NCBI GenBank assembly: GCA_003259005.1
Contig: QLII01000001.1
Span: 7,617,001 to 7,681,000, forward strand
Source: Spirosoma telluris
GTDB taxonomy: Bacteria > Bacteroidota > Bacteroidia > Cytophagales > Spirosomataceae
DNA: 64,000 nucleotides
Reading direction: 5' to 3'
Positions 3,393 through 62,432 of the stretch are shown here, piece after piece. The number at the start of each line of letters is the position of its first letter. Position 1 is the stretch's first letter. The position numbers and the translations under genes are program-made. The notes beneath the pieces were generated by a model. That model did not search any database. It was given only the letters and a program-made list of their open reading frames with translations, and had not been told where the DNA came from.

Positions 3393-3480
3393 AAAAGTAG
3401 TGAAGAATGAAGAGTGATGAGTGAAGAATATTAGTTGGTAAATATTCTTCACTCATCACTCTTCATTCTTCACTACTTTT
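3393..3480. repeat. Long perfect palindrome in the divergent rlmI/isomerase interval
   Basis: The 40-base arms (3393-3432 and 3441-3480) are perfectly complementary around an 8-base spacer. The arms are built from variants of the word GTGAAGAATGAAGAG. It fills 88 of the 126 bases between two divergently transcribed starts, so it is not a terminator for either gene. Confidence 0.9.
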
Positions 3481-3499
3481 GCGGACTTTTTAGATACGA

Positions 3500-4705
3500 A
3501 TGACATTTTCCAAATTATATCTACAGGCAGGGCGCGACGAAGCTGTTCGGCGTTTCCACCCCTGGGTGTTTTCACGGGCCATTAGCCGCTATGAAGGTAA
3601 CCTGAACGACGGCGACGTAGTGGAAGTCTTTGATAATAAAAACCGGTATCTCGCTACGGGCCACTACCACGATGGGAGTATTGCTGTACGGATCTTCTCC
3701 TTTGGCGCAACGGCAGGTGGCCCTGTTGTACCTGATTTACCCTACTGGACCCAGAAACTGGCTCATATTCGCAGTATACGGCAAGTTATTGTTACAGGAG
3801 AAACAAACTGCTATCGATTGGTTCATGGCGAAGGTGATGGCTGCACAGGACTGATTATCGATATGTATAATGGCGTTGCCGTGGTGCAGGCCCACTCCAT
3901 TGGGATGCACCGCGAACGAGACATTATTGCCGAGGCACTAAGGGCTGTTTTTGGGAATGAACTAACGGCTGTATACGATAAAAGTGCCGATACACTGCCT
4001 GACGAATATGGCGCCACCGTCACGAATGGCTATCTCTTTGGCCGTACCCCGGTACCGCATCCGGTGCAGGAGAACGGAAATACATTTCTGGTAGACTGGA
4101 TTACGGGTCAGAAAACGGGCTTTTTTCTTGACCAACGCGATAATCGCGCGTTGCTGGCCCAATATGCTCAAGGCAAGGACGTCCTGAATGCGTTCTGCTA
4201 CTCCGGTGGATTTTCGGTGTATGCACTTAAGGCGGGTGCCAATTTGGTTCATTCGGTCGATGTTTCGCAGAAAGCGATTGGGTTAACGAACCAGAACATA
4301 ACGGCGAACTTTGGTGAGGCTGACACCCGGCATGAGGCTCACGAGGCTTATGCTGAAGATGTGATGCATTACCTAAAGGCGCATGATCATAAATACGATG
4401 TCGTGGTTCTGGACCCGCCTGCTTTTGCCAAAAGCCTGTCAGCAAGGCATAGAGCGGTTCAGGGCTATAAACGCCTGAATGCAGAAGGGTTTCGTCGGGT
4501 AGCCAAAGGAGGGCTTTTGTTTACGTTTTCGTGTTCGCAGGTGGTGGATCGGGAGCTGTTTTATAATACGATTGTAGCTGCCGCTATTGAAGCCGGGCGT
4601 CAGGTACGGGTTTTGCATCACCTGAGCCAGCCTGCTGATCACCCGGTTAGTTTGTTTCACCCCGAAGGAGGCTATCTAAAAGGGCTTGTACTTTGGGTGG
4701 AATAG
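3500..4705 (+). CDS. rlmI: 23S rRNA m5C methyltransferase, RlmI type
   Basis: 401 residues. An N-terminal PUA domain (about 1-75: LQAGRDEAVRRFHPWVFSRAI, DGDVVEVFDNKNRYLATGHYH) is followed by a central EEHEE-like region and a Rossmann methyltransferase. Motif I is NAFCYSGGFSVYALKAGA, the ribose-binding acid is in VHSVDVSQKAI, motif IV is VVLDPPAFAKS, and the catalytic cysteine is in the FTFSCSQVV segment. This layout is that of RlmI (YccW), which makes m5C1962 in 23S rRNA from S-adenosylmethionine. The start 20 bases after the palindrome gives the full PUA domain. The exact position modified is inferred from the family. Confidence 0.87.
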   Translation: MTFSKLYLQAGRDEAVRRFHPWVFSRAISRYEGNLNDGDVVEVFDNKNRYLATGHYHDGSIAVRIFSFGATAGGPVVPDLPYWTQKLAHIRSIRQVIVTGETNCYRLVHGEGDGCTGLIIDMYNGVAVVQAHSIGMHRERDIIAEALRAVFGNELTAVYDKSADTLPDEYGATVTNGYLFGRTPVPHPVQENGNTFLVDWITGQKTGFFLDQRDNRALLAQYAQGKDVLNAFCYSGGFSVYALKAGANLVHSVDVSQKAIGLTNQNITANFGEADTRHEAHEAYAEDVMHYLKAHDHKYDVVVLDPPAFAKSLSARHRAVQGYKRLNAEGFRRVAKGGLLFTFSCSQVVDRELFYNTIVAAAIEAGRQVRVLHHLSQPADHPVSLFHPEGGYLKGLVLWVE

Positions 4706-4817
4706 GAGGGAGGAAAGGAGGAGGGGGAAGAGAAGGAGGATGGGTAAAATGATGTAAGAATTTGGCCTTTCTGCCTTTTCCCTTTCTTCCCCTTCCTCCA
4801 TCTCTTCCTTTTTCCTA
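4703..4817. repeat. Purine-arm imperfect palindrome after rlmI
   Basis: About 45 bases of almost pure purine (G/A words such as GGAGGGAGGAAAGGAGG) are followed, after about 25 bases, by a pyrimidine-rich stretch that is its imperfect reverse complement. It begins at the rlmI stop. The same purine/pyrimidine design recurs at 6728-6816 and 30911-31020. Confidence 0.75.
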
Positions 4818-4861
4818 TTCAGAAAGATACAACCTTACTTGCTTTACACTAATTTTGACTC

Positions 4862-4925
4862 TCAACTGGAGTGCTAGCCCAGTGGCGTGCCAACCCAGCG
4901 GAGTGTCGACCCAACGGAATGCCGG
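4862..4925. repeat. Four degenerate 16-bp tandem repeats upstream of the PDH E2 gene
   Basis: Four head-to-tail units at 4862-4877, 4878-4893, 4894-4909 and 4910-4925 share the pattern YCCARYGGMRTGYYRR (for example CCCAGCGGAGTGTCGA and CCCAACGGAATGCCGG). The last three begin CCCA. They end 64 bases before the E2 start codon. Confidence 0.7.
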
Positions 4926-4989
4926 TATGGTCTGCCGTTGTGGGCCCGGTCGATCTTTTCGTATAACCCGATTACATATATAGCTAATT

Positions 4990-6723
4990 ATGGCTGAATT
5001 AATCAGAATGCCCAAGATGAGCGACACAATGACCGAAGGCGTCATTGCGGAGTGGCACAAAAAGGTGGGCGATAAAGTAAAATCCGGCGACGTTCTGGCC
5101 GAAGTCGAAACCGATAAAGCGACCATGGACCTGGAGTCCTACGAAGAGGGTACACTCCTTTACATCGGTGTCGAAAAAGGCGCTTCAGTGCCCGTAGATG
5201 GCGTTCTGGCTATTATTGGAGCCGATGGTGAAGATTATAAAGCGTTGCTGAATGGTTCAACCGGTGGAAGCCAAGAGGCTCCTGCTCCTAAACTGGAAAC
5301 CGCCCCGGCTCCAGCGGCCAGTGATAGTACGCAAGTCGCCACAAAGTTGCCTGAACCGAAAGCTGTTTCGGCAGCTCCAGCGGAGAAAGTCAATGCGTCG
5401 ATTATCCGGATGCCGAAGATGAGCGACACGATGACCGAAGGCACTATCGTGGCCTGGCATAAAAAAGAAGGGGATACCGTAAAATCGGGTGATGTGCTGG
5501 CTGAAGTCGAAACCGACAAAGCGACCATGGATCTTGAAGCTTATGAAGAAGGTACACTGCTTTATATTGGGGTAAAAGAAGGTTCAGCCGTAGCTGTCGA
5601 CGATATCATTGCCGTTGTTGGTGAAAAAGGTGCCAACTTTAAAGTACTGCTGGATGGCAGTGCTGGCCAACAGGCTGCTACCGGCGAAGGCGGCAGCGCC
5701 ACCGCCCAGCAAAATCCACAGGCAGGTGTTCCTGCTAGTGCCGATACGGATTTATCCTATGCAGGTGGTGCCGGTGATGTTTCCGAATCGAATGGTCGGG
5801 TTAAAGCCTCCCCATTAGCGAAACGGATTGCTGAAGATAAAGGAATTAACCTCGCTCAGGTTCATGGCACGGGTCCCGAAGGACGTATTGTAAAAAGCGA
5901 TGTTGAATCGTTCGTTCCTGGTAAGGCTGCGCCAGCGGCTCAACCGGCTGCTCCTGTTGCGCAACCAACGGCTGCCCCAACACCGGCTGCTCAGCCATCT
6001 GCTCCTGCTCCCGTACCTACGCCAGCAGCAACATCCGTTGGGGGCGACTATGAGGATATTCCAGTTAGTCAGATGCGGAAGACGATTGCCCGCCGGTTGA
6101 GCGAGAGTCTGTTCACGGCTCCGCACTTCTACCTAACCATGGAAATCAACATGGATAAGGCAATGGCGTTACGTGGCACAGTTAATGGTCTCAGCCCGGT
6201 GAAGGTTTCCTTTAACGATTTCGTGATCAAAGCTGCTGCGCTGGCCTTGAAACAACATCCAAATGTCAACTCATCCTGGCTTGGCGACAAAATCCGTAAA
6301 TATAAGTATGTGAATATCGGTGTGGCTGTAGCCGTCGATGAAGGCTTACTAGTACCCGTTGTTCGGAATGCCGATCAGAAAACACTATCGACTATTTCGG
6401 GTGAAGTAAAAGATCTGGCTGGTAAAGCGAAAGATAAAAAACTCCAGCCGAAAGATTGGGAGGGCAGCACGTTCTCGATCTCGAACCTGGGTATGTTCGG
6501 AATTGATGAATTTACGGCCATCATCAACCCACCCGATTCCTGCATACTTGCCGTTGGTGCGATTAAGCAAACGGTTAAGTTTGAGGGTGATGTAGCCATG
6601 CCGACCAATGTTATGAAAGTAACCTTATCCTGCGACCACCGCGTGGTCGATGGGGCTACGGGGGCAGCTTTCCTGCAAACCGTTAAGCAACTGCTCGAAG
6701 ATCCAATGCGGATGTTGGTATAA
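4990..6723 (+). CDS. pdhC: Pyruvate dehydrogenase complex dihydrolipoyl acetyltransferase (E2)
   Basis: 577 residues. There are two lipoyl domains (about 1-80 and 136-215), each with the lipoylated lysine in EVETDKATMDLE. They are so alike at DNA level (shared blocks around ATGAGCGACAC and ACCGACAAAGCGACCATGG) that a fairly recent internal duplication is likely. Next come an Ala/Pro linker, the E3-binding domain (VKASPLAKRIAEDKGINL...HGTGPEGRIVKSDV), a second Ala/Pro/Gln linker and the catalytic core starting near ISQMRKTIARRL-type sequence (here VSQMRKTIARRLSESLFTAPHFYLT) and ending with the active-site SCDHRVVDGATGA. E2 moves the acetyl group from lipoamide to CoA. The E1 and E3 genes are not in this window. 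The catalytic His and Asp of HRVVDG are intact. Confidence 0.93.
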   Translation: MAELIRMPKMSDTMTEGVIAEWHKKVGDKVKSGDVLAEVETDKATMDLESYEEGTLLYIGVEKGASVPVDGVLAIIGADGEDYKALLNGSTGGSQEAPAPKLETAPAPAASDSTQVATKLPEPKAVSAAPAEKVNASIIRMPKMSDTMTEGTIVAWHKKEGDTVKSGDVLAEVETDKATMDLEAYEEGTLLYIGVKEGSAVAVDDIIAVVGEKGANFKVLLDGSAGQQAATGEGGSATAQQNPQAGVPASADTDLSYAGGAGDVSESNGRVKASPLAKRIAEDKGINLAQVHGTGPEGRIVKSDVESFVPGKAAPAAQPAAPVAQPTAAPTPAAQPSAPAPVPTPAATSVGGDYEDIPVSQMRKTIARRLSESLFTAPHFYLTMEINMDKAMALRGTVNGLSPVKVSFNDFVIKAAALALKQHPNVNSSWLGDKIRKYKYVNIGVAVAVDEGLLVPVVRNADQKTLSTISGEVKDLAGKAKDKKLQPKDWEGSTFSISNLGMFGIDEFTAIINPPDSCILAVGAIKQTVKFEGDVAMPTNVMKVTLSCDHRVVDGATGAAFLQTVKQLLEDPMRMLV

Positions 6724-6727
6724 AATA

Positions 6728-6816
6728 GGAGAAAAGGGAGGAGGGGGAGTAAAGGGACGAAAGGTGAATATACAACATCCCTTTCGTCCCTTTACTCCCC
6801 CTCCTCCCTTTTCTCC
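6728..6816. repeat. Perfect 37-bp-arm purine/pyrimidine palindrome
   Basis: Arms 6728-6764 and 6780-6816 are exactly complementary over 37 bases with a 15-base spacer. The left arm is almost all purine. It separates the convergent E2 and thioredoxin genes and could stop transcription from both sides, but has no T tract. Confidence 0.9.
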
Positions 6817-6825
6817 CTCTAAAAA

Positions 6826-11714: not shown

Positions 11715-11798
11715 TTTTTTAATAAAAAAAGACCGTAAAAAACAATTAGTTCTAGTATAAGAACAATTGTTTTTTACGGTCTTTTTTTATTAAAAAAT
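11715..11798. repeat. Long AT-rich inverted repeat with T-runs on both strands
   Basis: Arms of about 38 bases (11715-11753 and 11760-11798ish) pair with a single bulged base around a 6-base loop. The core word AAAAAACAATT and the block GACCGT appear in both arms, and each arm ends in A/T runs. It could terminate transcription in both directions. Confidence 0.85.
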
Positions 11799-12041: not shown

Positions 12042-15000
12042 ATGAAAGCAACGTTCTACAGGTTTCTGCAGACCGCTTTTTTGGGCGCAGTCTTACTGCT
12101 GGGAAGCTTAACTGTTTCCGCCCAAGACCGTCAGGTGACGGGAAAAATTACCGGTAATGATGGCCCTGTTCCAGGTGCTAACGTAGTCCTGAAAGGTACC
12201 CAAACCGGGACATCTAGTGATGCTAATGGCAACTTTAAGATTTCTGTCCGGGGGGCCAATCCTGTGTTAGTAATTTCGGCTATTGGTACAAAAACTCAGG
12301 AGGTTTCAGTAGGTAACCAGACCAATCTTGACGTGCGTCTCGAAGACGATGCGACTGCTCTTTCCGAAGTGGTTGTAACGGGTTATTCGACCGAAAACCG
12401 TCGGGATGTAACCGGTGCCGTATCGACCGTGAAGCCCGCCCAACTCAAAGTGGTGCCGTCGGCTAACGTTGAGCAGCAGTTGCAGGGCCGCGTAGCGGGG
12501 GTAACCGTTATCACCAACGGTCAGCCAGGCACCTCCAGCCAGGTTCGGGTACGGGCTTCGGTTCTTTTGGGGGTAACCAGCCGCTGTATGTGGTTGACGG
12601 GGTGCCTACCCAAAACATCCAGTTCCTCTCTCCAGATGACATCGAAAGCACTACGGTTCTGAAAGATGCTGCTTCGGCTTCGATTTATGGGGCTCGTGCC
12701 GCGTCGGGTGTGATCGTGTTGACCACCAAGAAAGGGCAGCGCCGGGCTCAGAAATTGAGCGTTAGTTACGATGGACTGTTTGGAGCTACCGATCCAGGCA
12801 AAAGCCTACCGATCCTCAATCCACAGGAGCAGGCTGACTGGACCTGGCAGGCGCGTAAAAATGACCTTTACCAGGCAGGCACAACGCCCGATGCAACGAG
12901 CTTTGCGGGTATCGCCGGTGGTCAGTATGGTTCGGGCTTAACCCCGGTTCTGCCTGATTATCTGCTGGTTGGTAGCCGTTCGGGCTTGTCGGCTTCGCAG
13001 GTTGATTTAACGGCTGAAGCCGCTAAATATAATGTTAACCCTGCTAACGGTGCGATCTACAACGTCATTCCCTCTAACAAAGCGGGTACTGACTGGTATG
13101 CGGCCATTACCCGCGTAGCTCCTATGATGCGCCACTCACTGGGCTTTTCGGGCGGTACAGAATCCAGCCGTTTTTATATCAGCCTGGCTATGCAGAAGCA
13201 AGCTGGTATTGTAATTTTTAACGATTTCTCTCGCTATACCCTTCGCGCTAACACTGAGTTCGATATCACCAAGAAACTCCGTTTCGGTGAGAATTTCCAA
13301 CTAGCTTACATCTCCAATAAAGGTGTTCTTGGTGGGGTGGGCAATCAGCTTGGTAACTCAACCAACAATAACTCAAGCTCTTCTTCGGATGAAAATGAGG
13401 TCTTAACTGCCTTCCGTACTCCCCCGATTATCCCAGTGTATAACTCCTTCGGTGGTTATGCGGGTACAGCCGCTCCTGGCTTTAACAACCCGCACAACGC
13501 GGTTGCTGACCGGACGGCCAACGCCAATAACGGAAACTTCAACATCTATGGTTTTGGTAATGCGTATTTAGAGTATGATGTCATTCCTTCGTTGACACTG
13601 CGGAGCAGCATTGGGGGTACTTATTTCAGCAATTACTACAACAGCTACGGCCGGGTTCAGTATGAAAACTCGGAGAACAACACGACCTATACCTACAGTG
13701 AAGGCTCGGGTTATGGCTTAGCCTGGACCTTTACCAATACGGCTACCTTCAAACAGAAATTTGGTCGTCATGATGTGTTTGCTTTAGGGGGTATCGAAGC
13801 CTTGAACAACGGTTTAGGTCGTAATATCAGTGGTTCGGGTCAGAACCCATTCTCAACCGATCCAAACTATGTGACCATTAACACGACGACACCAGGAGCT
13901 ACTCGTAGCGTTGGTAGTAACTATTATCTGGGGAATAAATTCTATTCGCTGTTTGCTCAGGCTCGCTACACCTACAACGATAAGTACATCCTGACCGGCG
14001 TCATTCGTCGGGATGGTTCGTCCCAGTTCGCAGCGTCTAACCGCTATGGGGTGTTCCCTGCCGTTTCGGCTGCCTGGCGCTTATCTTCGGAAGAATTCAT
14101 GAAGAACCTGCCCTGGGTGTCGGATTTGAAAGTACGGGTGGCTATGGTATCATGGGCAACTCCAACTACCTGAGTGCTACCAACCAGTTTAACCTCTATG
14201 GTGGTGGGGCTGGTCAGGGCTATGACATCACGGGATCAAACGGGTCGATTGCTTCAGGTTTCTATCGGAGCCAGATTGGTAATGCAGCCGCTAAATGGGA
14301 ATCCAGTATCACCTCTAACATTGGTATCGACGGATCATTCTTCAATAACAAGCTGGAAGTTGTTGTTGATTTGTGGCAGAAAGACACCAAGGATCTGCTC
14401 TATCCGTTGACATTACCTGGCGTAGTAGGAGTTCGTTCGAGTGCTCCCTACAAAAACGTAGCCAGCATGAGCAACAAAGGGATCGACATTTTGGTGACCA
14501 ACCGGGGTACGCTTTCTGGTGATCTGACCTATGAAGTGACCGGTATTGCCAGCTTCCTAAGCAACAAAATTACCGCAATTGATCCGTCAGTTCCATACTT
14601 CACGGCGGGTGGTACTCGTTTGAGCACCAACGTGGTTCGTAACCAACCTGGCTATGCGCTGTCATCGTTTTACGGATACAAAGTAATTGGTCTGTTCAAC
14701 AGCAAGGAAGAAGTGGCCGCTGCCCCAACGCAGGATGGCGCGGCTCCAGGTCGTTTCCGCTATGCCGATACGAATGGTGATGGTAAAATCAACGACGACG
14801 ATCGCCAGTTCCTGGGTAATCCAATTCCGAAGTTCACGGGTAGTATTACCCTGACGCTGAAGTATAAAGGCTTCGATTTGAACACCAACCTGTACGCTTC
14901 GCTGGGTAATAAAATCTTTAATAACCAGCGCTGGTTCACCGATTTCTACCCATCCTTCACGGGGGCGGCTGTTAGCGGTCGGGTAAAAGATTCGTGGTTA

Positions 15001-17097: not shown

Positions 17098-17123
17098 GCT
17101 GATCGATTGATTAATTAAATAGT

Positions 17124-24375: not shown

Positions 24376-24472
24376 GGTGTAGTAAGTGTAGTGGTTGAGT
24401 GAGTGCAGTAAGTGGAGCGTGGTTGACCAACTGCACTTACTACACTCACTCAACCACTGTACCTACTCCACT
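24376..24472. repeat. Long imperfect palindrome between tldE and tldD
   Basis: Arms of about 38 bases on each side of an 18-base spacer pair with about four mismatches. They are built of GTGTAGTAAGTG / CACTTACTACAC words. It lies just upstream of the tldE start and just downstream of the tldD stop. Confidence 0.8.
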
Positions 24473-26113
24473 ATATTTTCCGACCTGTATTGATCACATT
24501 GACGCCGTTGAAACGAGCGGTTGCGCTGCCGTGCGACACCGCGTTGATTTGGATCGGTTGGCCTTTCCCGTCGAAAAATGACCCGCCTAATCGGTAATCG
24601 CGCTCGTCGCATACCTTCACACAGGAGTTCCAGAATTCCTGCGTATTGGATTGATAGGCCACATCTTTCAGCATCCCAACGATTTGGCCATCTTTGATCT
24701 CGTAGGCCAGTTGTCCGCTAAACTGGAAGTTATACCGCTGTTGGTCAATAGAATAGGAGCTATCGCCAATAATGTAAATGCCTTTCTTTACATCTTTGAT
24801 CAATTCATCGACCGAGAGGGGTTCTTTGCCCGCTGCCAGCGATACGTTGGCCATACGCTGGAATTGAACCGATCCCCAGCTATCAGCATAACAACATCCC
24901 TGCGATTCGGTCTCGCCCAGCATATGGACCTGATCGCGGATGGCCTGATAGTTGACCAGAATGCCATCTTTAACCAAATCCCAGCGTTTGGTCTGAACCC
25001 CTCATCGTCGTACCCCACGGCTCCTAACGACCCTGCCTGGGTTTTGTCGGCAAAGAGAGTAACCTGATTACTTCCGTAATTGAACCCTTTGGTTTTCCAC
25101 TTGTCGATGGTAGCAAAGGACGTCCCGGCGAAGTTAGCTTCGTAGCCGAGCACCCGGTCCAGTTCCAGCGGATGCCCGACCGATTCGTGAATGGTCAGCC
25201 AGGTATGCGAGGGGTCGAGTACCAGATCGTATTTGCCCGCTTCGACCGATTTGGCCGTGAGTTTTTGTTTAGCCTGTTTGGCAGCCGCTACCACATCTTC
25301 GAGCATGTCATAGCCTTTGTTGTAGCGGGTGGTGATCCCTGTAATTTTATCGGCTGGATTAACCTGTAGGTACTCGTACCCCATGCCCATGGGTGCACTC
25401 AGAGAATCTCTGGTTTCAAACTTACCGCTTTTGGGATCGATAGCTGTAACAGTGAAGCTGGGCCATAAGCGGTGAATATCCTGATCGATGTAGGAGCCAT
25501 CGGTGGAGGCAAAATACTTCTGTTCGTTGACCAGAAACAGCTGTGAATTTACGAAGCTGGCACCATTTTTCGAGGCCGCTCCATTGACCGCCATTAGCAA
25601 TTCTACTTTCTCTTTGATCGGAATTTCAAAGGCGTTTTTCTGGATGGGCGTTTTCCAACTGATCTCGCCAAAGCCTTTTTGTGGAGCCAGCTGAACAGGT
25701 TCGTCGGATAATAACAAGGCATTTGCTTTAGCCATTGCCACCGCTTTTTCGGCTGCTCTGGCTAATTCCGCTTCGGTTTTTGCATCACCAACGGCAGCAA
25801 ATCCCCAGCAGCCATCGGCAATAACGCGGATACCTACACCATACGATTCTGTACTCGCTATATTCTGTACTTTGTCTTCGCGGGTAATAATGAACTGGTT
25901 CAGGTAGCGACCAATTCGAACATCGGCATAGGAGGCTCCCTTCGATTTGGCGGCATTCAGGGCAGCATCGGCCAGTCGTTTTTTTATAACTAGGTCCAGG
26001 CCAGGCATTAGCAGGGCTTCTTCTGAGACTGGGCGCCCGAAAACAGGTAGTTGGGAGAGCAGTAACGAACCGGCCCCTAAGCCCGTTACCTGCATAAAGT
26101 CTCGTCGATTCAA
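24471..26113 (-). CDS. tldD: TldD family metalloprotease, Tat signal (one apparent frameshift)
   Basis: About 547 residues when repaired. A Tat signal (MNRRDFMQVTGLGAGSLLLSQLPVFG) is followed by the family's N-terminal domain (ASYADVRIGRYLNQFIITREDKVQ...) and the metal motif HESVGHPLELDRVLGYEANFAGTSFAT, then the C-terminal part (YDDEGVQTKRWDLVKDGILVNYQAIRDQVHMLGE... CCYADSWGSVQFQRMANVSLAAG... LIKDVKKGIYIIGDSSYSIDQQRYNFQFSGQLAYEIKDGQIVG). The frame breaks at about 24998 where a C run of four (plus strand) should be five, restoring YDDEGVQTKRW. The HExxxH zinc ligands are intact. With TldE it forms the heterodimeric protease. Export by Tat is odd for the E. coli-type cytoplasmic complex and suggests periplasmic action. 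Confidence 0.85.
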
Positions 26114-26479
26114 GAGCGTTTCCTGCGTTTAGAGTATGTATCGATTGACTTGGTTCATTTTGTAGAACCAGCTCGTGGCTTCGAACAGAGCCAGGTCGTA
26201 ACGATGCAGGAAGATATGCAATTCTTTAGTTAAGCGGAATATAGTTTTGTTATAACCAGTCTGATTGTAGTTTAAATTCTATTAGTTCTTTTTATGGTAA
26301 AATAAAAGTTGGTGGTTGGTTTGGTGGAGTTGTTCGGAATTTTTTTGTTGTCACTAGAATGAGTGCGGTTTTGCGTGTAGTGCCGACCGTCCCGGTCGGG
26401 AGAGAAATACTTTAATACACACCTGGGACGGTCGGCACTACAGAGCCTGCTCCTACTATTTTGAAAGGTTTAAACAACT
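26114..26479. other. Intergenic region with a GC-rich palindrome
   Basis: 366 bases without a gene. The only clear structure is the palindrome at 26376-26442. The left half includes T/A-rich and T-run sequence that may hold promoters for tldD on the minus strand; none was convincing. Confidence 0.6.
26376..26442. repeat. GC-rich palindrome, 18-bp perfect arms
   Basis: TGTAGTGCCGACCGTCCC (26376-26393) pairs perfectly with its complement at 26425-26442. A nested 6-base inverted repeat (CCGTCC..) sits in the left arm. It lies downstream of the nuclease gene remnant and upstream of tldD. Confidence 0.85.
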
Positions 26480-27126: not shown

Positions 27127-27557
27127 ATGAAGCAGCAACGGTCGAGCAGTCATTCGGTGCATCAATTGCAAGTTCATCTGGTGTGGAGCACCAAGTATCG
27201 GTATCAGGTGCTGACAGGGGAGGTTCAACTGCGTTGTCGAGACCTGATTCGGCAAACCTGCAATGCGCTGGACGTACAGATTCTGAAAGGGGTTGTGAGC
27301 AAAGACCACATCCATTTGCATGTATCGTATCCACCCTCGTTGAGTGTGAGCGACATGGTCAAACGGCTGAAGGGTCGGAGTGCGAAACTGCTCTTGGCTG
27401 AGTACCCGGAGCTGAAACGTCGGTATTGGGGCGGTCATTTTTGGGGATTGGTTATGGAGCCTGGAGCGTGGGCTCGATTACCGATGAGTTGTTGCAGACC
27501 TATTTGGATCATCATAAAGAACACCCGAATGGGGATGAGAATTTTATTCTGGAATGA
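27127..27557 (+). CDS. tnpA: IS200/IS605-family transposase TnpA (one apparent frameshift)
   Basis: About 143 residues when repaired. The start MKQQRSSSHSVHQLQVHLVWSTKYRYQVL and the HUH motif in KDHIHLHVSYPP match the Y1 single-strand transposase family. The frame breaks at about 27445, where a run of four G should be five; repair gives HFWGIGYGAWSVGSITDELLQTYLDHHKEHPNGDENFILE. The catalytic Tyr is probably that of TYLDHH, so the unrepaired frame would separate HUH from Tyr. As the break matches the window-wide G-run deficit, the enzyme may be intact in the living cell. It cuts single-stranded DNA at its hairpin ends. Confidence 0.85.
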
Positions 27558-27558
27558 T

Positions 27559-27644
27559 CCCCTTTCAGGGGTTGGCTTTCAGTCGGTTTCAACCGAAACG
27601 GCGAATTTCATTCGCTTCTCAACCTATGGACTTCCAGTCCATAG
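27559..27644. repeat. Four small hairpins in a row at the IS right end
   Basis: CCCCT-TTC-AGGGG (27559-27571), TCGGTT-TC-AACCGA (27583-27596), GCGAAT-TTC-ATTCGC (27601-27615) and CTATGGACT-TCC-AGTCCATAG (27624-27644). Stems differ, but the loops are all TC-centred. This looks like REP-type palindrome series. Confidence 0.75.
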
Positions 27645-27652
27645 TCGTTTAG

Positions 27653-28132
27653 TTTTTCGCTACCTTTTTTTAATAGCTTCAAAAATTCCTCACGCAGGTA
27701 GGTTTTATATTCGCCTACATCAAATTTTGACTGATAACCTGTTTTAAAATAGATGGGTATAATCTGATCAGCAGTGTAATTTTTTCTGGTATTCTCATAA
27801 TATCTGCCTAACTGGCCTGAGTGATGATCGGTATGTGTTTTGTCCTCAATCAAAATTGCTAGCTTGTCAGGAGCATCTGCATTGATTTTAATCAATATGT
27901 CTAACTTCTCAACTTGCCGCTCAACATCAACAGTTCTGATCATTGCTACATCATAACTTGGCTGGTGTTTATGGATCAATGAAGCAATGAACTCGCGGGC
28001 AGTTTGATATAACTCTGGGTCAATAGCCTGAAATTTTGGATTAGCCCAAGCGGCTAGCCAGCAGATGAAGGCATCCTGTGATAATTCACTGGTTGCGTAT
28101 GAAAAAAGATTCGGACGGGCGGGATTCTCCAT
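27653..28132 (-). pseudogene. PD-(D/E)XK nuclease gene, 5' part (cut by IS)
   Basis: The N-terminal 160 residues (MENPARPNLFSYATSELSQDAFICWLAAWANP...). The frame continues through the IS end into 14 foreign residues (LNDYGLEVHRLRSE) to a stop at 27608. The catalytic region reads VERQVEKLDILIKI... KLAILIEDKTHTDHHSGQLGRYYENTRK: an Asp before the strand and the E-x-K of the next strand fit the PD-(D/E)XK fold, near the PDDEXK_4 group. The role in the cell is unknown; such proteins often sit in defence or mobile regions. The IS splits it 3' to the catalytic motif, so the fragment keeps all expected active-site residues but loses its C-terminal half. Confidence 0.75.
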
Positions 28133-30911: not shown

Positions 30912-31018
30912 GAAAAGGGAAGGAAGGAGGAAAGGGAGTAAAAGGACGAGAGGGAGGAAAGGAAAAAAGGTAAGGGCGGCTTATTTCTTTCCTCCCCCTC
31001 GTCCCTTTCCTCCTCCCC
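30911..31018. repeat. Purine/pyrimidine imperfect palindrome between convergent genes
   Basis: A purine-rich left part (words such as GGAGGAAAGGGAGT) and a pyrimidine-rich right part pair imperfectly around about 30 bases. It starts at the stop of the NTF2-like gene and ends at the stop of the thioesterase gene. Confidence 0.75.
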
Positions 31019-31535: not shown

Positions 31536-31990
31536 TTTTTAGTTGTTGGTAAATAGATTCCGTTATCCGTGAACGATCATTCATGACTCTAATCCTCAGG
31601 AATAACCGTTTGCCAATAACGGATAACCAGTTTGCAAACCAACCACCGAAAATTGAAACGGTCAAACGGGGAGTAAAGATTTACACGGGATTTTCAGCTA
31701 GACTAGTGCTCGTCCAATTTAGTTTCTATAGATTCTTTTGGTTCTATTGTATCTGATTGTCAATACAATAGAACCAAAAGAATCTATAGGATCAAAAGAA
31801 TCTATTTTGCCAAAGCACTACTATGGAGTTGGTACACTACTCTCCGAAAGAAATGAAGAACACAACCAAAATGGTATACAATCAGTATAAGTTGCCCGAT
31901 TTTTGCTGTTATCTAGTGAACAAATCAATTAAATGTCTGTTCTGCAACAGGAAGTATAGTACAACCTCCATTATTAATCACCAATTTATT
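31536..31990. other. Divergent intergenic region with two palindromes
   Basis: 455 bases without a supported gene. It contains an inverted repeat GTTATCCGT / ACGGATAAC (31564-31627) and the long palindrome at 31726-31789. A frame open from 31823 merely extends the fasciclin gene upstream without a good start. Confidence 0.65.
31726..31789. repeat. Palindrome with 27-bp perfect arms (GATTCT-word family)
   Basis: Arms 31726-31752 and 31763-31789 match perfectly; the left arm is made of GATTCTTTT, GGTTCTATT and GTAT. The unit resembles the 9-base GATTCTnnn words of the palindromes at 38280-38346 and 39737-39813. Confidence 0.9.
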
Positions 31991-33010: not shown

Positions 33011-33090
33011 GCAAAGGATGCCAGGACAGCGTAGCGATCGCAAAGGAGGGTAAGATTATTCCTTCGCGATCGTTGCGCTGTCTTGGCGTT
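33011..33090. repeat. Imperfect palindrome with GCAAAG words
   Basis: AACGCAAAGGATGCCAGGACAGCG is followed by its near complement with the words CTGTCTTGGCGTT at the right end; GCGATCGC and CGCGATCG lie inside. It separates fasciclin and polA. The word GCAAAG recurs at 38237-38250. Confidence 0.7.
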
Positions 33091-38227: not shown

Positions 38228-38548
38228 TTTTAACACAAAGGCGCAAAGCAGCTTGTGCCCTAACAAAACAGACTCTTTGGATTCTGTTGATTCTATGGAT
38301 TCTATTGACTCATTAGGCTAATAGAATCCATAAAATCAACAGAATCTATTTTTTGCGCCTTTGCCGGTGCGGTTTAAAAATAATCCTTAATTGCACCGAC
38401 TAACTAATAAATTAGACCTTTCTTAGAGTGGGGAACAATTTTGCACTTTTTCTATTTTTCTAACAAAATAGGCTTCATTTTGTGAGGTTTATTGTGAGTT
38501 TTCCAAGTTGGATCAACTCGCGAGCTGTCAGAAAATAGTACGCTGCAA
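38228..38548. other. Intergenic region with nested palindromes
   Basis: 321 bases. It holds the palindrome at 38280-38346, an outer pair of GGCGCAAAG and its complement, and AT-rich sequence before the MFS gene. No gene seen. Confidence 0.65.
38280..38346. repeat. Palindrome with 27-bp arms (GATTCT-word family)
   Basis: Arms 38280-38306 and 38320-38346 pair with one mismatch. The left arm has three units of GATTCTnnn. It is enclosed by AAAGGCGCAAAG at 38237-38248 and GCGCCTTTG near 38355. Confidence 0.9.
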
Positions 38549-39736: not shown

Positions 39737-39813
39737 GATTCTGTTGATTCTGTGGATTCTTTCGATTCTCTGTTTGCTATAGAATCGAAAGAATCCACAG
39801 AATCAACAGAATC
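39737..39813. repeat. Palindrome with 33-bp perfect arms (GATTCT-word family)
   Basis: Arms 39737-39769 and 39781-39813 match perfectly around an 11-base spacer. The left arm is GATTCTGTT, GATTCTGTG, GATTCTTTC and GATTCT, a clear 9-base period. The right arm is followed by a further partial copy (AATAGAATCCACAGAATC). Confidence 0.92.
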
Positions 39814-40919: not shown

Positions 40920-40989
40920 TTTACGGTTTTCAGTGTAGGGTTTACGGTTATTTCATACTCATCGTAAACTCTATACTGAAAACCGTAAA
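40920..40989. repeat. Imperfect palindrome between SPFH and UspA genes
   Basis: Arms TTTACGGTTTTCAGTGTAGG.. (40920-40947) and its near complement (40963-40989) pair with two mismatches over 27 bases. Confidence 0.85.
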
Positions 40990-41735: not shown

Positions 41736-41803
41736 CCCCTGTTAACTTCCCGAAACGGGGCCGCCTGCCCGGCGGTTCAAAACTTTTGGGAAGTTAACAG
41801 GGG
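41736..41803. repeat. Palindrome with 16-bp perfect arms between convergent genes
   Basis: CCCCTGTTAACTTCCC (41736-41751) pairs perfectly with 41788-41803. A second small GC-rich inverted repeat (CCGCC..GGCGG) lies inside the loop. Confidence 0.9.
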
Positions 41804-44852: not shown

Positions 44853-44940
44853 ATGATTCTGGGATTCTATTGATTATGGCGCAACTAGCGTTTTATACAG
44901 ATCACTAAAAGAATCTATAGAATCCAAAGAATCTGAGATA
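44853..44940. repeat. GATTCT-word palindrome in the divergent PNPOx/MocR interval
   Basis: GATTCTGGGATTCTATTGATT (about 44855-44876) and AGAATCTATAGAATCCAA.. (44910-44932) pair imperfectly. It occupies the shared promoter region of the divergent genes. Confidence 0.75.
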
Positions 44941-48169: not shown

Positions 48170-48191
48170 AATGATCCTATTTATGGAAAAA

Positions 48192-48263
48192 ATAACCACA
48201 GAGGCACAGAGATCGCAGAGAAAAGCCACAAAATCTCTGTGTTCTCTGTGCCTCTGTGGTTAA
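48192..48263. repeat. Palindrome of CACAGAGGCACAGAG type
   Basis: AACCACAGAGGCACAGAGA near 48193-48211 pairs with TCTCTGTGCCTCTGTGGTT at 48244-48262; between them lies a further AAATCTCTGTG/CGCAGAGAAAA pairing. It lies between the Ada-like gene and the oxygenase gene, so the cluster is split by a large hairpin. The word family looks familiar from other phyla but I could not check. Confidence 0.85.
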
Positions 48264-48270
48264 GTAAAAC

Positions 48271-49115
48271 TCATACGTCAGCCCGTGCGGCTTCCCAGCC
48301 GAGCATGGCTTGTTTGCGTTCGACACCCCAGCGATACCCGCCAAACAGGCCGGTTTTTTTATGACCCGGTGGCACGGAATCAAATAGCCAACCGGATTGC
48401 TGCCAATGGCTGTTCCAACGGCTCGTGAGGCTGTCGGTTGCCCAATCGCTTCGGCAATCTGGTCGTAGCTGGCCAATCGTCCTTCCGGAATCTTGAGTAA
48501 GGCTTCCCATACTTTAAGCTGAAAAGCAGAACCGCGAAGTAAAACCGGCAGCGGATGTGTTAGAGCGGCAACGTCGTTTGACGGGAAAATCTGATTCGCC
48601 AACGTTTGTACTGCATCCTGGTCCTGTCGAAGTGCAACTTCTGGCCAGGCCGTTCTCAGAATTACTTCAGGATCATCGTTTTCGGTCAGAAAATGGAGCA
48701 GTGCGATTTTTCCATTGATAGTTCCCAATACGTATTTTCCAAAGGGGCTATTGAAGACACCATACGAAAGTGCCAAGCCGGAACCCGCCTGCTTGAACTG
48801 CCCAGGGGTAACCCCTTCAATCGTAACAAACAGATCATGTAATCGACCCGTCCCCGATAGGCCTGCATCATGAGCCGCATCACTTAGGGGAGCCCCCTTG
48901 CGAAGTTGGGTTTTGGCATGTTCAAGCGTTAAATATTGCCCAAACTTTTTAGGACTTACCCCTGCCCATTCGGTGAATAGTCGCTGGAAATGAAACTCGC
49001 TTAGATTCGCTTTTTCAGCTAATTCGCTCAACGAGGGTTGCTCACGAAAGTGCGTGGTGAGGTGCTCGATAGCGCGGGCAATTTGCTGATAGGTGTAGGT
49101 GTTACTGGTTGTCAT
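48271..49115 (-). CDS. Ada-like AraC/O6-methylguanine-DNA methyltransferase (one apparent frameshift)
   Basis: About 281 residues when repaired, from the ATG at 49115 (MTTSNTYTYQQIARAIEHLTTHFREQPSLSELAEKANLSEFHFQRLFTEWAGVSPKKFGQYLTLEHAKTQL). An AraC helix-turn-helix (about 10-100) is followed by the methyltransferase domain: FGKYVLGTINGKIALLHFL... GSAFQLKVWEALLKIPEGRLASYDQIAEAIGQPTASRAVGTAIGSNPVGYLIPCHRVI with the acceptor Cys in PCHRVI. The frame breaks at about 48354, where seven T (plus strand) should be eight; repair gives KKTGLFGGYRWGVERKQAMLGWEAARADV. The N-terminal Ada zinc domain is absent and found as a separate gene downstream. Confidence 0.87.
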
Positions 49116-53281: not shown

Positions 53282-53320
53282 TGGCTAGTCTGATACGAGT
53301 AAGTTAATGAATAATGTAAA

Positions 53321-53368
53321 ATGAATAATGGACAATGATTTGATTATTAGTCATTGTCCATTATTCAT
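53321..53368. repeat. Palindrome with 18-bp perfect arms
   Basis: ATGAATAATGGACAATGA (53321-53338) pairs perfectly with 53351-53368 around 12 bases, and the flanking TAATGAATAATG / TTATTCATTA extends the pairing. Confidence 0.85.
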
Positions 53369-53390
53369 TAACCTGCGGTAGATATGCATA

Positions 53391-58599: not shown

Positions 58600-58682
58600 G
58601 AATAGTCACTAACCGTTAGTCAATAGTCGTCGGAAACCGTTACTCACTCTCGACTATTACCTAACGATTTTCGACTGACTCC
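58600..58682. repeat. Imperfect palindrome with AGTCxnTAGTC words in a divergent interval
   Basis: AATAGTCACTAACCGTTAGTCAATAGTCG and its near complement (CGACTATTACCTAACGATTTTCGACTGACT) pair imperfectly. It ends 8 bases before the polyprenyl synthase start. Confidence 0.65.
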
Positions 58683-58689
58683 CCATATA

Positions 58690-59663
58690 ATGTCTCTTAC
58701 CGTCGCGGATATACAGGCTCCTATTGCTGTCGAAATGGAATTGTTCGAACAGAAGTTTCGGGGGTTGATGAAGAGTGACGTCATGCTACTCGACCAGATT
58801 ACGAAGTACATTGTGAAGCGGAAAGGAAAGCAGCTCCGCCCAATGTTTGTGTTTCTAATGGCCGGTGTATGCGGGCAAATTAACGAATCGACTTACCGGG
58901 GGCATCACTTATTGAGTTGTGTCACACCGCTTCCCTTGTTCATGACGATGTGGTCGACGAGTCTAACTATCGACGTGGTTTTTTTTCGATTAATGCCCTC
59001 TGGAAAAATAAAGTAGCTGTACTGGTTGGCGATTATCTATTAACACGTGGCTTGTTTCTGGCCGTTGATAATAATGATCACGATCTGCTTCGAATCGTTA
59101 CAATGGCTGTTCGCGAACTGAGTGAGGGAGAGTTGCTACAAATTGAAAAAGCCCGGCGTTTAGACATTACCGAAGCGGTTTACTACGAGATTATCCGCCA
59201 AAAAACGGCCTCACTTATTGCTGCCTGTTGTGCTGTCGGCGCACAGTCGGTGGGGGTTGATAAAGAATTGGTGGAAAAGGCCCGGTTCTTTGGTGAAAAA
59301 GTAGGTATCGCCTTTCAGATAAAAGATGACCTGTTTGACTATGGGACTGCCGAAGTGGGAAAGCCATTAGGCATCGACATCAAAGAGAAAAAAATGACCC
59401 TACCGCTTATTTATGCGCTGAATAAAGCGGGCTTTCTGGAGAAACGACGCATAATCAACATTATCAAGAACGAAAGCGAAAAGCCCAAGAAGGTTAATGA
59501 AGTCATTGCCTTCGTGAAGAATTCAGGCGGAATTGAGTATGCAACCCAGGCCATGAATCAATACGTTGCCGAAGCTCAGGCGCTCTTAAACGCTTTCCCC
59601 GATTCACGCTATCGGCAATCATTACACCAACTCGTGCAGTATACTATTGACCGAAGCAAATAA
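58690..59663 (+). CDS. Polyprenyl diphosphate synthase (one apparent frameshift)
   Basis: About 325 residues when repaired. The first aspartate-rich motif is LVHDDVVDESNYRRG, and the second is IKDDLFDYGTAEVGKPLGIDIKEKKMTLPLIYALNKAG, both intact, with RKGKQLRPMFVFLMAG before the first. The frame breaks at about 58898 (five G should be six), restoring YRGASLIELCHTASLVHDDVVDE. The enzyme condenses isopentenyl diphosphate onto an allylic primer, as needed for quinone side chains or cell-wall lipids. Chain length is not certain; the residues before the first motif (IELCHTASL) are in a size range often seen in longer-chain enzymes. Confidence 0.87.
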
Positions 59664-59664
59664 T

Positions 59665-59739
59665 AGTGAAGAGTGTAGAATGAAGAGTTAAGAATACATA
59701 TCTATTATATTCTTAACTCTTCATTCTACACTCTTCACT
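59665..59739. repeat. Perfect 32-bp-arm palindrome between convergent genes
   Basis: Arms 59665-59696 and 59708-59739 are exactly complementary around 11 bases. The words (GTGAAGAGTG, AATGAAGAGT) are related to those of the palindrome at 3393-3480. Confidence 0.92.
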
Positions 59740-60512
59740 TCTTTCTTCGTCTTCTCCCCAAATAACCGGTGGAAATCAGGGCTTTCTGTCTTCATCCACT
59801 TATCCCAGAACGTAAAATACAGGCCATAGTTGAACCGAAACTGCGTATGATGCAGGCTATGGTGGGTTGCCCCAATGAGCCATCGCCCGATCCAGTGCTG
59901 ATCAAAATTTCGGGGGTAAATTTCTGTATTCAAATGATTGACCGCACTTGACAAGGTCATAATCAATAAAATAAACCCGACGGCTGAAATATGGAGCGGT
60001 ATGACAAACGTTAGGGCCGGAATTACAATGGCTTGTAGGGTACTCTCAATTGGATGAAACGAGAAGGCTGTCCAGGCTGAGGTTGTAATACTGTCATGAT
60101 GGGTTCTATGGACTAATTTATACACACCCGGCCGGTGCATCCAGCGATGAAGCCAGTAATAGTACGTTTCGTGAATAAACAGGACGAGGATAATACTGAT
60201 GGGATACCACCAAAGTGGATAGGCACGCAGATTAGCATAGATTCGAGTATGCCCCGCTTGAAAGGCAAGAATTACGCCCATGGCAATGGCTGTAAAGATA
60301 AGCGATGTCAGCACTGACCAGCCAATCTCACGCCAATCCTGACCCGGTTTGCGGGGGCGCGTCTGCACGGCCCGATGGGCAAACTGGTTTTTCATCGACA
60401 CTTTAAATAACCACCAGAACGCCAGCGAAAATAATACATACCGCCCAAAAATAGCGATGAAAAACAGCAAGGCTGTCAGCCAGAACGTAGCAGGGCCGGA
60501 AATCTGAATCAT
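59721..60512 (-). CDS. Sterol desaturase / fatty acid hydroxylase family protein
   Basis: 263 residues with about four membrane segments (TFWLTALLFFIAIFGRYVLFSLAFWWLF, VLTSLIFTAIAMGVILAF, ISIILVLFIHETYYYW, IVIPALTFVIPLHISAVGFILLIM). The three histidine boxes are HETYYYWLHRWMH, HRTHHDS and HSLHHTQFRFNYG, with HLNTEIYP before the last, so the di-iron centre should be complete. It oxidises or desaturates a lipid or carotenoid at the inner membrane. The substrate is unclear. Its stop lies inside the 32-bp-arm palindrome: the right arm (59708-59739) covers the last codons, so arm and gene end overlap. Confidence 0.87.
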   Translation of the reverse strand: MIQISGPATFWLTALLFFIAIFGRYVLFSLAFWWLFKVSMKNQFAHRAVQTRPRKPGQDWREIGWSVLTSLIFTAIAMGVILAFQAGHTRIYANLRAYPLWWYPISIILVLFIHETYYYWLHRWMHRPGVYKLVHRTHHDSITTSAWTAFSFHPIESTLQAIVIPALTFVIPLHISAVGFILLIMTLSSAVNHLNTEIYPRNFDQHWIGRWLIGATHHSLHHTQFRFNYGLYFTFWDKWMKTESPDFHRLFGEKTKKEVKSVE

Positions 60513-60696
60513 ATCAATAGGGCAAATTGCTTTGCCATTAACTCAACAGATTCAAAACCACAATGTTGAAAAAAAAGTCCCTTTTCGATAGAGGCAGGTC
60601 GATAAACTTCGGATTTGCCCGCTCTTAGCTTCATGTGCTCCTTTCGTTTGTTTGTACATTTGCCTGAAAGTTTCTCAACAACCAACGAACGACCTT

Positions 60697-62349
60697 ATGC
60701 GTCTGACTTCTTCTGTTTTGCTGTTGTCTTTGCTTACCTTAACAGCCTTCGCTCAACCTAAAAAAACAGCATTACCACCTCGTTCTCCATTAGCCAAGCC
60801 AAAGCTTGTCGTCGGCATTGTAATTGACCAAATGCGTTATGATTACCTCTATCGGTACTATGCCAAATTTGGTACTGGTGGTTTTCGGCGATTGATGGAC
60901 CAGGGGTTTAATGCCCGAAATAACCATTATCATTATGCCGCTACGTATACCGGCCCTGGTCATGCGGCTATTTATACGGGTTCTGCTCCGGCGCTTAACG
61001 GCATTGTTGGAAATGATTTTTACGAGCGAAATATTGGCCGGTTGTTATACTGTGCCGAGGATACCACAGTCAGTACCGTAGGTAATACAGGTACGGCAGG
61101 TAAAATGTCGCCCCGTAACCTGCTCGTTACAACAATTGGAGACCAGCTTAAACTCGCTACCGATGGTCGGGCTAAGGTTATAGGGATTGCCTTGAAAGAT
61201 CGAGGGGCTATTCTGCCAGCTGGTCATGCCGCCAATGCTGCCTATTGGTTCGACTCGAAAGATGGAAATTTTATTAGCAGCACGTTCTACCAAAAGGAGT
61301 TACCACAATGGGTACAGTCATTCAACGCGCAAAAGCTTCCCGAGAAGTTTATTAGCCAGAGATGGGAGCCTACACTTCCCATGAACCAATATACAGAAAG
61401 CACCGCCGACGATAAGACTTACGAAGCAACAATGCCGGGAGAGGCTAAAGCCGTTTTTCCGCACGAATTTGTTGTTCAAACGGGTAGTAGTAAATACGAA
61501 GTCCTACGGACCAGTCCTTACGGCGATCAGATTACCAAAGAGTTTGCGTTGGCTGCGCTGAAAGGTGAACAGTTAGGCCAACACGAAGTAACGGATATGC
61601 TTTGCCTTAGTTTTTCTTCGCCCGACTATATCGGTCATGCCTTTGGCACGCATGCCGTAGAAACCGAAGATAATTACATTCGACTTGACCGTCAGCTTGC
61701 GGATATTTTTGCGAACCTGGATGCTACAGTGGGAAAGGGAGAGTGGCTGGCATTCCTATCGGCAGATCACGGCGTAGTCGATGCGCCCGGTTTTTTACAG
61801 GAATATCGTATTCCGGCGGGCGTAAAAACTTACGGAGAAGTTGGGGAGACCGTAAAAGCTACGCTCGAAAAGGCGTATGGTCCAGGGCAGTGGATGTTGT
61901 CCTACATGAACCAGCAGGTTTATCTGAACCATGCTCTGTTAGTAGAGAAGAAGATTGCCATGCAGGATGTATACGAATTGCTGCGGGCTACCTTGCTTAA
62001 GCAGAAGGCCATTGTTAACGTGATTAATTTACACAATCTGGGTGCGGAAGCTCTGCCATTATTGCAGGAAAATCTGTTTCGGAATGTTTATCACCCGAAC
62101 CGGAGTGGTGATTTCTATGTAATGCAACCTCCAGGCTGGCTCGAAGGTCGTAATAAGGGCACTACACACGGCACTACCTATGCGTATGACACGCATGTAC
62201 CCTTTCTGCTCTACGGCTGGGGGGTTAAACCCGGTCAGACGCTGCGTCGGACTCATATTCATGATATTGCGCCAACTATAACGGCCCTACTTGGTCTGCT
62301 CGAACCCAATGGCTGCATCGGGAATCCGGTAGAGGAAGCGATGAAGTAG
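60697..62349 (+). CDS. PafA-type alkaline phosphatase / type I phosphodiesterase family
   Basis: About 550 residues from the ATG at 60697 (MRLTSSVLLLSLLTLTAFAQPKK, signal peptide). The metal site has VGIVIDQMRYDYLYRYYAKFGTGGFRRLMDQGFNARNNHYHYAATYTGPGHAAIYTGSAPALNGIVGNDF: the first Asp and the Thr of ATYTGPGH (nucleophile) are as in PafA. The second set includes SSPDYIGHAFGTHAVETEDNYIRLDRQLADIF and LSADHGVVDAPGF, then HGTTYAYDTHVPFLLYGWGVKPG. These give the D, T, D/H, DH and H ligands for two zinc ions. It releases phosphate from phosphate monoesters in the periplasm. The upstream frame to 60652 lacks a signal peptide. Confidence 0.9.
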   Translation: MRLTSSVLLLSLLTLTAFAQPKKTALPPRSPLAKPKLVVGIVIDQMRYDYLYRYYAKFGTGGFRRLMDQGFNARNNHYHYAATYTGPGHAAIYTGSAPALNGIVGNDFYERNIGRLLYCAEDTTVSTVGNTGTAGKMSPRNLLVTTIGDQLKLATDGRAKVIGIALKDRGAILPAGHAANAAYWFDSKDGNFISSTFYQKELPQWVQSFNAQKLPEKFISQRWEPTLPMNQYTESTADDKTYEATMPGEAKAVFPHEFVVQTGSSKYEVLRTSPYGDQITKEFALAALKGEQLGQHEVTDMLCLSFSSPDYIGHAFGTHAVETEDNYIRLDRQLADIFANLDATVGKGEWLAFLSADHGVVDAPGFLQEYRIPAGVKTYGEVGETVKATLEKAYGPGQWMLSYMNQQVYLNHALLVEKKIAMQDVYELLRATLLKQKAIVNVINLHNLGAEALPLLQENLFRNVYHPNRSGDFYVMQPPGWLEGRNKGTTHGTTYAYDTHVPFLLYGWGVKPGQTLRRTHIHDIAPTITALLGLLEPNGCIGNPVEEAMK

Positions 62350-62432
62350 TGTAGTGAGTGATTAGTGTAGTAGTGAAGTAAGTGAAGTCGACAAACTAAT
62401 TCCACTCACTTCACTACTTTCACTCACTATAC
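62348..62432. repeat. Imperfect palindrome of GTGTAGTGAGTG words
   Basis: Left AGTGTAGTGAGTGATTAGTG.. and right CCACTCACTTCACTACTTTC.. pair imperfectly. It starts at the stop of the phosphatase and overlaps the last codons of birA on the opposite strand. Confidence 0.75.

Follow-up and report, generated by a model that had tools for sequence, protein, structure and literature searches.

The window analysed here is a stretch of 64,000 nucleotides (bases 7,617,001-7,681,000) of the 9.09 Mb genome of Spirosoma telluris, and its intergenic regions hold many long, near-perfect inverted repeats, which we call palindromes. A preliminary description had taken them for a single undescribed system of mobile or structural elements. 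The set is not one system, as it mixes ordinary terminators, repeats resembling the repetitive extragenic palindromes (REPs), including a GTAG-tagged pair, and palindromes whose arms are built from short words. The latter may be considered a variant of REP-like repeats, and no published description of word palindromes in Spirosoma was found in the open-access literature, the only literature searched. We lean towards regarding most of the palindromes as dispersed REP-like hairpins of several families, kept perfect by template switching and tolerated, or used, as 3′-end structures. In what follows, G-numbers denote other Spirosoma genomes and L-numbers denote loci or stretches, and gene ends are approximate because genes were called with a simple hexamer model built for this analysis.

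The window contains 19 ungapped inverted repeats scoring at least 13, while the top score across 10 dinucleotide shuffles of it was 12, and no score reached 13 in a shuffled 400 kb sample. When the intergenic regions of at least 40 bp were searched with gaps allowed, 22 of 43 scored higher than any of the 60 dinucleotide shuffles made of each region (8 of 9 convergent, 10 of 21 co-directional and 4 of 13 divergent regions), so the palindromes are commoner than in shuffled intergenic sequence. Many arms are of low complexity and internally repetitive, as would be expected if random low-complexity sequence yielded such palindromes by chance, but the arms match each other better than the units of an arm match among themselves. 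Together with the shuffles, this refutes a chance origin, to which we assign practically no probability. A structured RNA known to Rfam was also rejected, as Rfam 15 gave no match over the gathering score in the window.

The palindromes for which the preliminary description had given arm lengths are present as described. At 3393-3480, between divergent genes, 40-bp arms of GTGAAGAAT words enclose a loop of 8 bases and, at 6728-6816, between the convergent genes of an E2 dehydrogenase and a thioredoxin, 37-bp arms of GGAG/AAAGGG words enclose a loop of 15 that is inverted in G023. GATTCT words form arms of 33 bp at 39737-39813, of 27 bp at 31726-31789 (between divergent genes, with none found at the site in G008 or G023) and of 27 bp (96%) at 38280-38346, which lies within outer 12-bp CAAAGGCGCAAA arms and is missing in G008. 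For the site at 39737-39813, the orthologous site of G008 shows a 128-bp gap, and that of G023, which aligns over its full length (286/346), may be a decayed copy. The 32-bp arms at 59665-59739 are made of GTGAAGAGT words. At 41736-41803, between convergent genes, the arms (16 bp if perfect, or 20 bp at 95%) belong to none of the families assigned, and the 18-bp arms at 26376-26442 are two inverted GTAG-tagged REP-like halves (TGTAGTGCCGACCGTCCC) separated by a loop of 31.

Other parts of that description need correction. The palindrome at 58600 is not significant against its own shuffles, and those at 44853 and 56014 are present but weak (score 12 each). Loops, described as having 8-15 bases, range from 4 to 44 among the 22 significant regions. 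The hairpins at 17123, 36313 and 53387 resemble ordinary T-tract terminators. Likewise, although none was thought to encode a protein, the palindrome at 59665-59739 overlaps the end of the minus-strand gene 59721-60512, and a CACAGAG-word palindrome at 48193-48262 overlaps the 3′ end of the predicted gene 48177-49115.

Word families, polarity and turnover

Inverted repeats scoring at least 15 were counted in a 1.264 Mb sample of the genome, formed by the window and sixty 20-kb stretches. There were 220, of which 200 lack the short loop and T tract of intrinsic terminators under a simple rule (a loop of at most 8 bases and four consecutive A or T at the hairpin foot) and 20 pass it, although the rule wrongly, in our view, dropped 3393-3480 and one AATG palindrome (L123), lets longer-loop terminators count as palindromes, and leaves among the 200 an rpsT leader hairpin and an A/T-rich palindrome at 11715-11797. 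The density of non-terminator palindromes is thus 158 per Mb (about 1,400 genome-wide by extrapolation), and those of the relatives are 176 in G008, 158 in G023, 153 in G003, 114 in G010 and 100 in G001. Additionally, some palindromes are nested, with outer arms scoring at least 11 in 11 of 198 cases (0.5 expected), about two or three of which join two different families.

The arms do not merely differ from one another, as had been proposed. Among the 167 arms of at least 18 bp, 119 fall in 14 clusters of at least three, the largest of which merges several related words, besides which there are 46 components of only one or two arms. On visual inspection, ten clusters are word-built (for instance, GATTCTNNN, AATGNAN, GTGNAGTNN and CACAGAG) and four are REP-like (GTCATCC, GTAGCG, GCCGGGTT and GGGCCAAGC types). 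Local alignments scoring at least 15 among these arms produce 271 pairs of the same polarity and none of opposite polarity, and the counts become 393 and 1 when the threshold is lowered to 13. As a palindrome is identical on both strands, this polarity implies that a given word always forms the 5′ arm. Such strict polarity would not be produced if scattered tandem arrays folded back in random directions. The AATG word shows the same order: in 1.403 Mb it occurs at 28 loci, 22 of them palindromic, with 20 arranged forward then reverse, none in the reverse order, and 8 on a single strand.

The abundance of these words changes sharply within the genus. Exact patterns were counted in 36 Spirosoma genomes, with overlapping matches counted separately. 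GATTCT triple words occur 115 times in S. telluris, 13 in G008, 4 each in G003 and G023, once in G035, and never in the remaining 31 genomes. Some GATTCT copies must be recent, because the elements at L004, L013 and partly L011 have near-identical outer sequence at different places. The AATG pattern has 451 matches in S. telluris, 416 in G023, 287 in G008, 222 in G022, 135 in G001, 106 in G016 and 90 in G017, with 5 in G003 and none in eight genomes; the E2 protein of G003 is as near to that of S. telluris as the one of G023. GTGNAGT was found 96 times in S. telluris, 92 in G023, 45 in G003, 33 in G016, 31 in G010, 19 in G007, 5 in G028, once in G008 and not in the rest, and its backward control gave 2 matches in total.

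Orthologous regions of S. telluris and five relatives were also compared, with an alignment score of 13 defining the same family. The 42 convergent comparisons comprise 5 with the same family, 10 with different words, 11 with a palindrome only in S. telluris, 9 only in the relative and 7 in neither; the 113 co-directional ones comprise 8, 8, 23, 11 and 63, respectively, and the 46 divergent ones 0, 0, 6, 2 and 38. Turnover is somewhat overstated by these figures, because no fewer than three of the 18 pairs counted as “different” seem, by eye, to belong to the same family (numbers 5 in G023, and 71 and 105 in G001) and some of the one-sided cases seem to be decayed copies, such as that at 39737-39813 in G023; moreover, the rpsT leader provides two of the “same” pairs, and 3393-3480 was left out by the terminator rule. 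The clearest turnover is seen in the spacer between the E2 and thioredoxin genes, for which 18 of 30 loci were read in the right orientation. Purine-word palindromes occupy this spacer in S. telluris, G008, G015, G035 and G023, GTGGAGTAA words and an ordinary terminator are found in G010, and several other genomes have small hairpins and a terminator. Judging from the sequences compared, word families expand and disappear from one species to another, and the words found at a given site can differ. These lineage-specific bursts, and the presence or absence of palindromes at orthologous sites, bear out the earlier suggestion of dispersed structural elements above chance.

The site at 3393-3480 behaves in a similar way: G003 shares its words, G023 and G008 have purine words instead, G001 has GAAAGAGC words and G010 has none. 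The arrays found between this divergent gene pair (3393-3490) in S. telluris, G023, G008 and G001 stop at a TANNTTTG sequence, which we take to be the Bacteroidota −7 box; as they end there, the arrays may shape the promoter.

Gene 3′ ends and the identity of the arms

The 200 non-terminator palindromes are concentrated at the 3′ ends of genes. Convergent intergenic regions hold 61 of them (2.88 per kb), co-directional regions 111 (0.85 per kb, at a median of 12 bp after the upstream stop) and divergent regions 9 (0.22 per kb; 10 of 201 if 3393-3480 is counted), and the other 19 lie in predicted coding sequence or across its edge. Both this density and the distance to predicted stops agree with the position of intrinsic terminators. 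Divergent placement, which the preliminary description had used to argue against terminators, is real, but it is the rarest orientation, and with a density of 0.22 per kb, compared to 2.88 in convergent regions, it does not support the weight given to it. Most palindromes come close to being restricted to predicted gene 3′ ends, and thereby to one of the results that the preliminary description had named as refuting it, with the exception of the GATTCT elements and 3393-3480.

This placement raises the possibility that the palindromes are bidirectional terminators, or stabilisers of mRNA 3′ ends, whose arms are kept paired by selection on an RNA hairpin. Besides the enrichment between convergent genes and directly past stops, regions with a palindrome seldom hold an ordinary terminator. 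In regions of 30-600 bp, and with terminators called by a simple rule, these were found in 4 of 66 convergent regions of S. telluris with a palindrome and in 17 of 71 without one (p=0.004); in the relatives, the figures were 0 of 69 and 43 of 344 for co-directional regions (p=0.0004) and 1 of 38 and 10 of 56 for convergent regions (p=0.03). By contrast, the deficit was not significant in the co-directional regions of S. telluris (3 of 121 with and 30 of 523 without, p=0.17), nor in divergent regions (0 of 13 and 4 of 119 in S. telluris; 0 of 6 and 2 of 102 in the relatives), and the greedy picking of hairpins could conceal small stems. The deficit fits either a take-over of the 3′-end role or insertion into old terminators. 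At the E2 site, the five genomes with a purine palindrome have no T-tract hairpin, which also agrees with a terminator role. However, such a role leaves the shared words, the polarity, the bursts and the inversion of loops unexplained, and some palindromes lie between divergent genes.

Mismatches within the arms provide a further argument. In the sense strand of 117 co-directional palindromes, we counted 52 G-U, 56 A-C and 73 other mismatches; thus, there is no preference for the G-U wobble that RNA would tolerate. Terminators had only 3 mismatches in all, which made them useless as a positive control of this test. Taking these results together, we regard terminators or stabilisers kept paired by RNA selection as an unlikely explanation for the palindromes.

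Instead, the identity of the two arms appears to be maintained through a type of copying error made in DNA replication. It has been described that template switching between inverted repeats homogenises their arms and inverts their spacers, and the accounts consulted in part (PMC8604942, PMC8794818) deal with yeast genes, microRNAs and rRNA, while here we face a large population of intergenic bacterial palindromes; the likeness resides in arm homogenisation, compensated changes and loop inversion. In 13 same-family ortholog pairs (324 aligned columns), 281 arm columns were identical, 26 had changed in both arms to another Watson-Crick pair, and 17 were mismatched in one species. This excess of double over single changes carries some ascertainment bias, but the double changes are still notable, because independent drift would give almost none. 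In our proposal, the hairpin would extrude and one arm would be copied from the other by template switching, leaving both arms identical at the DNA level, and the same switch might also flip the loop.

Loops offer some indications of such flipping. In 36 ortholog pairs, compared with a pool of 278 other loops and leaving out the rpsT leader and a second copy of the E2 site, four loops were inverted and one was forward at p<0.01 (0.36 expected), although one of the four inverted pairs (site 76) scores forward too (p=0.018). For instance, the 11-base loop of G023 at the E2 site is the exact reverse complement of part of the S. telluris loop, and the loops of G008 and G015 are largely inverted with respect to each other. 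At p<0.02, a test with plain shuffles, superseded by the later comparisons, had given 7 inverted and 6 forward loops in 42 pairs, one site being represented twice. The loss of the hairpin nuclease SbcD was also considered as a cause of long palindromes, and rejected: palindromes are numerous in S. telluris and G023, where SbcD matches exceed the cut-off, and equally in G008, where there is none, while G004, also without a match, has few.

Dispersal and relation to known repeats

Several palindrome sites are absent in close relatives. Direct repeats of at least 5 bases were found at the ends of 10 of 199 palindromes, with 14.4 given by the null; no target duplication was thus detected at these 199, and insertion by a DDE-type enzyme, as for miniature inverted-repeat transposable elements (MITEs), was rejected. 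What defines a word-built family is a degenerate word of 7-9 bp that invariably forms the 5′ arm. We propose that the elements might disperse as hairpins. They could be moved in trans by Y1/HUH transposases, which are candidates for the spreading agent, and would survive where they are least harmful, immediately downstream of stops, and there they may assume the role of bidirectional 3′-end structures.

The participation of a Y1 enzyme in trans is possible in view of three results. The genome of S. telluris has 14 Y1 transposase matches, some of which are fragments of one gene; the Y1 gene in L187 carries the GCCGGGTTAAAACCCGGCGC repeat of REP-like cluster 9 on both sides; and GTGNAGT is absent from the 7 genomes, out of 36, that lack a Y1 match, where AATG never exceeds 14 matches, but is present in 8 of the 29 genomes with Y1, 11 of which have more than 14 AATG matches, although the Y1-free genomes may just be relatives of each other. 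Two of them, G005 and G004, which may be close kin, have 65 and 60 non-terminator palindromes per Mb.

These results, the GTAG tags of 26376-26442 and the lack of target duplications could be taken further, to propose that all the palindromes are REPs or REPINs (paired REPs) mobilised by Y1 transposases of the RAYT/IS200 type. As in the REP, BIME (bacterial interspersed mosaic element) and REPIN repeats and their RAYTs described in the parts consulted of PMC3733652, we find short intergenic palindromes that are lineage-specific, have many copies and form inverted pairs, one cluster that flanks a Y1 gene on both sides and one GTAG-tagged element in the window. Insertion sequences have also been reported to target REPs (PMC1525189, consulted in part). 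However, GTAG, which is found in 26376-26442 and members of cluster 8, is not present at the ends of the word families (up to 14 examined per family), which have longer, near-perfect arms of degenerate 7-9-mers. The copies of the AATG family, the one tested through its loops, share no consensus that includes the spacer either (see below). As the GTAG tag is missing and the AATG spacer unshared, we class the word palindromes as REP-like in behaviour but not as REPs. Additionally, the Y1 gene of the window is identified by NCBIfam as an IS200/IS605 TnpA, under the RAYT cut-off, none of the 14 Y1 matches has a word-built palindrome within 1.5 kb, and AATG words persist in 4 of the 7 Y1-free genomes. 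Consequently, we find it doubtful that the whole set consists of REPINs or REPs.

The last two observations also count against the dispersal of REP-like hairpins and template switching that we favour, and they are not the only ones to do so. Under a simple test of word structure (60% identity at a lag of 6-10 bases), the arms count as word-built in only 70 of the 200 palindromes. The compensated columns are inflated because arms were chosen for pairing, the rpsT leader accounts for two of the 13 pairs and for 31 of the identical columns, and 6 of the 26 double changes come from the A/T-rich palindrome at 11715-11797. The loop test loses its asymmetry at p<0.02, with 4 of 36 inverted and 4 of 36 forward (0.72 expected of each), and only 2 of 39 pairs were inverted, and 1 forward, at p<0.01 when the null was provided by dinucleotide shuffles, a hard null for loops this short. 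Finally, AATG loops are no more than 0.27 alike, with 0.25 for shuffled loops, which is odd for copies of a recent burst whose arms are alike at 0.73. That these apparently recent copies share word grammar and polarity, but not loops, is for us the most interesting unexplained fact of the system.

A very different origin could be envisaged, in which the word palindromes would not be copied between sites; rather, a machine present in each lineage, similar to telomerase or to a reverse transcriptase, would write a short array of words, some of their positions being free, onto a 3′ DNA end, followed by snap-back self-copying. Each new site would then show the grammar and polarity of the others and have perfect arms, but its loop would be unrelated to theirs and its target would not be duplicated, and word families could be switched on and off between close species. 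We nonetheless deem such a machine very improbable. If, as we prefer to think, the palindromes are dispersed hairpins maintained by template switching, the very large set of sites in one genus would be a natural experiment on how this process keeps hairpins perfect, and the same sites would show palindromic repeats replacing one another and genes changing their 3′-end signals between species. In addition, the word-family counts obtained in the 36 genomes would provide a direct route to look for the spreading agent.

Words of this kind are not confined to Spirosoma. A 27-base CACAGAG word is found on plasmids of Nostoc, Anabaena and Gloeocapsa and, less exactly, of Calothrix, with an exact or one-mismatch match in 6 of 7 records, and in five cyanobacterial plasmid records (L238-L242, 1501-1527) it is a lone intergenic arm without an inverted partner. 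GTCATCC-type palindromes are present in named Hymenobacter loci, and this word matched only two Spirosoma plasmids. The AATG word matched seven plasmids of Providencia, Parabacteroides and Pantoea, the one examined holding a tandem array without inverted partner, and plasmid searches with two other words gave no match. In a search of 296 genomes of the phylum, mostly of distant classes, the only one with matches besides S. telluris proved to contain a plain tandem array of GATTCTCAG. A short-word repeat with a spread across phyla had been noted before, in the TAACTGA heptamers of Beggiatoaceae, Cyanobacteria and Bacteroidetes (PMC4679880, consulted in part), which are likewise intergenic and patchy; these are direct tandem repeats placed, in the main genome, mostly just before starts, unlike the inverted arms found here mostly after stops. 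Palindromic microsatellite elements of Fusarium mitochondria, according to the parts consulted of PMC7218506, also have low-complexity arms, are optional between species and have been called mobile, but their arms are mononucleotide A/T runs in organelles, unlike the word arms described here.

Further elements and neighbouring genes of the window

Other palindromes of the window show similar variation. The purine (GGAG)-word palindrome at 30935-31013, between convergent genes, has a related one in G023 and an unrelated AACCTGGATTTTT palindrome in its place in G008, and G008 has a CGCAAAG-word palindrome at the site of a weaker one (33020-33087). The GTTTACGG-word palindrome at 40920-40989 lies between co-directional genes, 13 bp past a stop, with related words in G008, G023 and G001. 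Two more are found between convergent genes, one of AATGNAN words at 53320-53369, which is missing in G023 and G003, and an imperfect one of GTAGTGAGTG-type words at 62344-62419. Elsewhere, perfect hairpins of 40 and 35 bp with 3-base loops (L124, 8748-8830; L129, 18835-18907) lack evident word structure and are of a different kind from the word palindromes.

An imperfect palindrome with 38-bp arms of GTGGAGTAA-type words and a loop of 19 (24377-24471) is located at the end of a minus-strand open reading frame (ORF), 24471-24977. This ORF and an overlapping one in a different frame share a TldD/PmbA-like protease (24471-26095), domains 1, 2 and the start of 3 being encoded in 24800-26095 and the remainder of domain 3 in 24471-24977. 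The spacer called within this region by the gene finder is conserved in G023 and G008. The IS200/IS605 family Y1 transposase gene (27127-27747) is about 0.7 kb from the GTAG-tagged element at 26376-26442.

The rpsT leader hairpin (857-896) has perfect 16-bp arms and precedes the minus-strand gene of S20 (543-809). It is found at the same place in G023, G008, G003 and G010, not clearly in G001, and is a candidate regulatory leader. The A/T-rich palindrome at 11715-11797 has 33-bp arms inside a long gap, with six matched double changes with respect to G023, and is followed by an ORF (12042-12662) that matches only the first part of the SusC/RagA profile. The E2 dehydrogenase of the window, for its part, is 88% identical to that of a Spirosoma metagenome-assembled genome and 87% identical to that of S. 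fluviale, its nearest named relatives.

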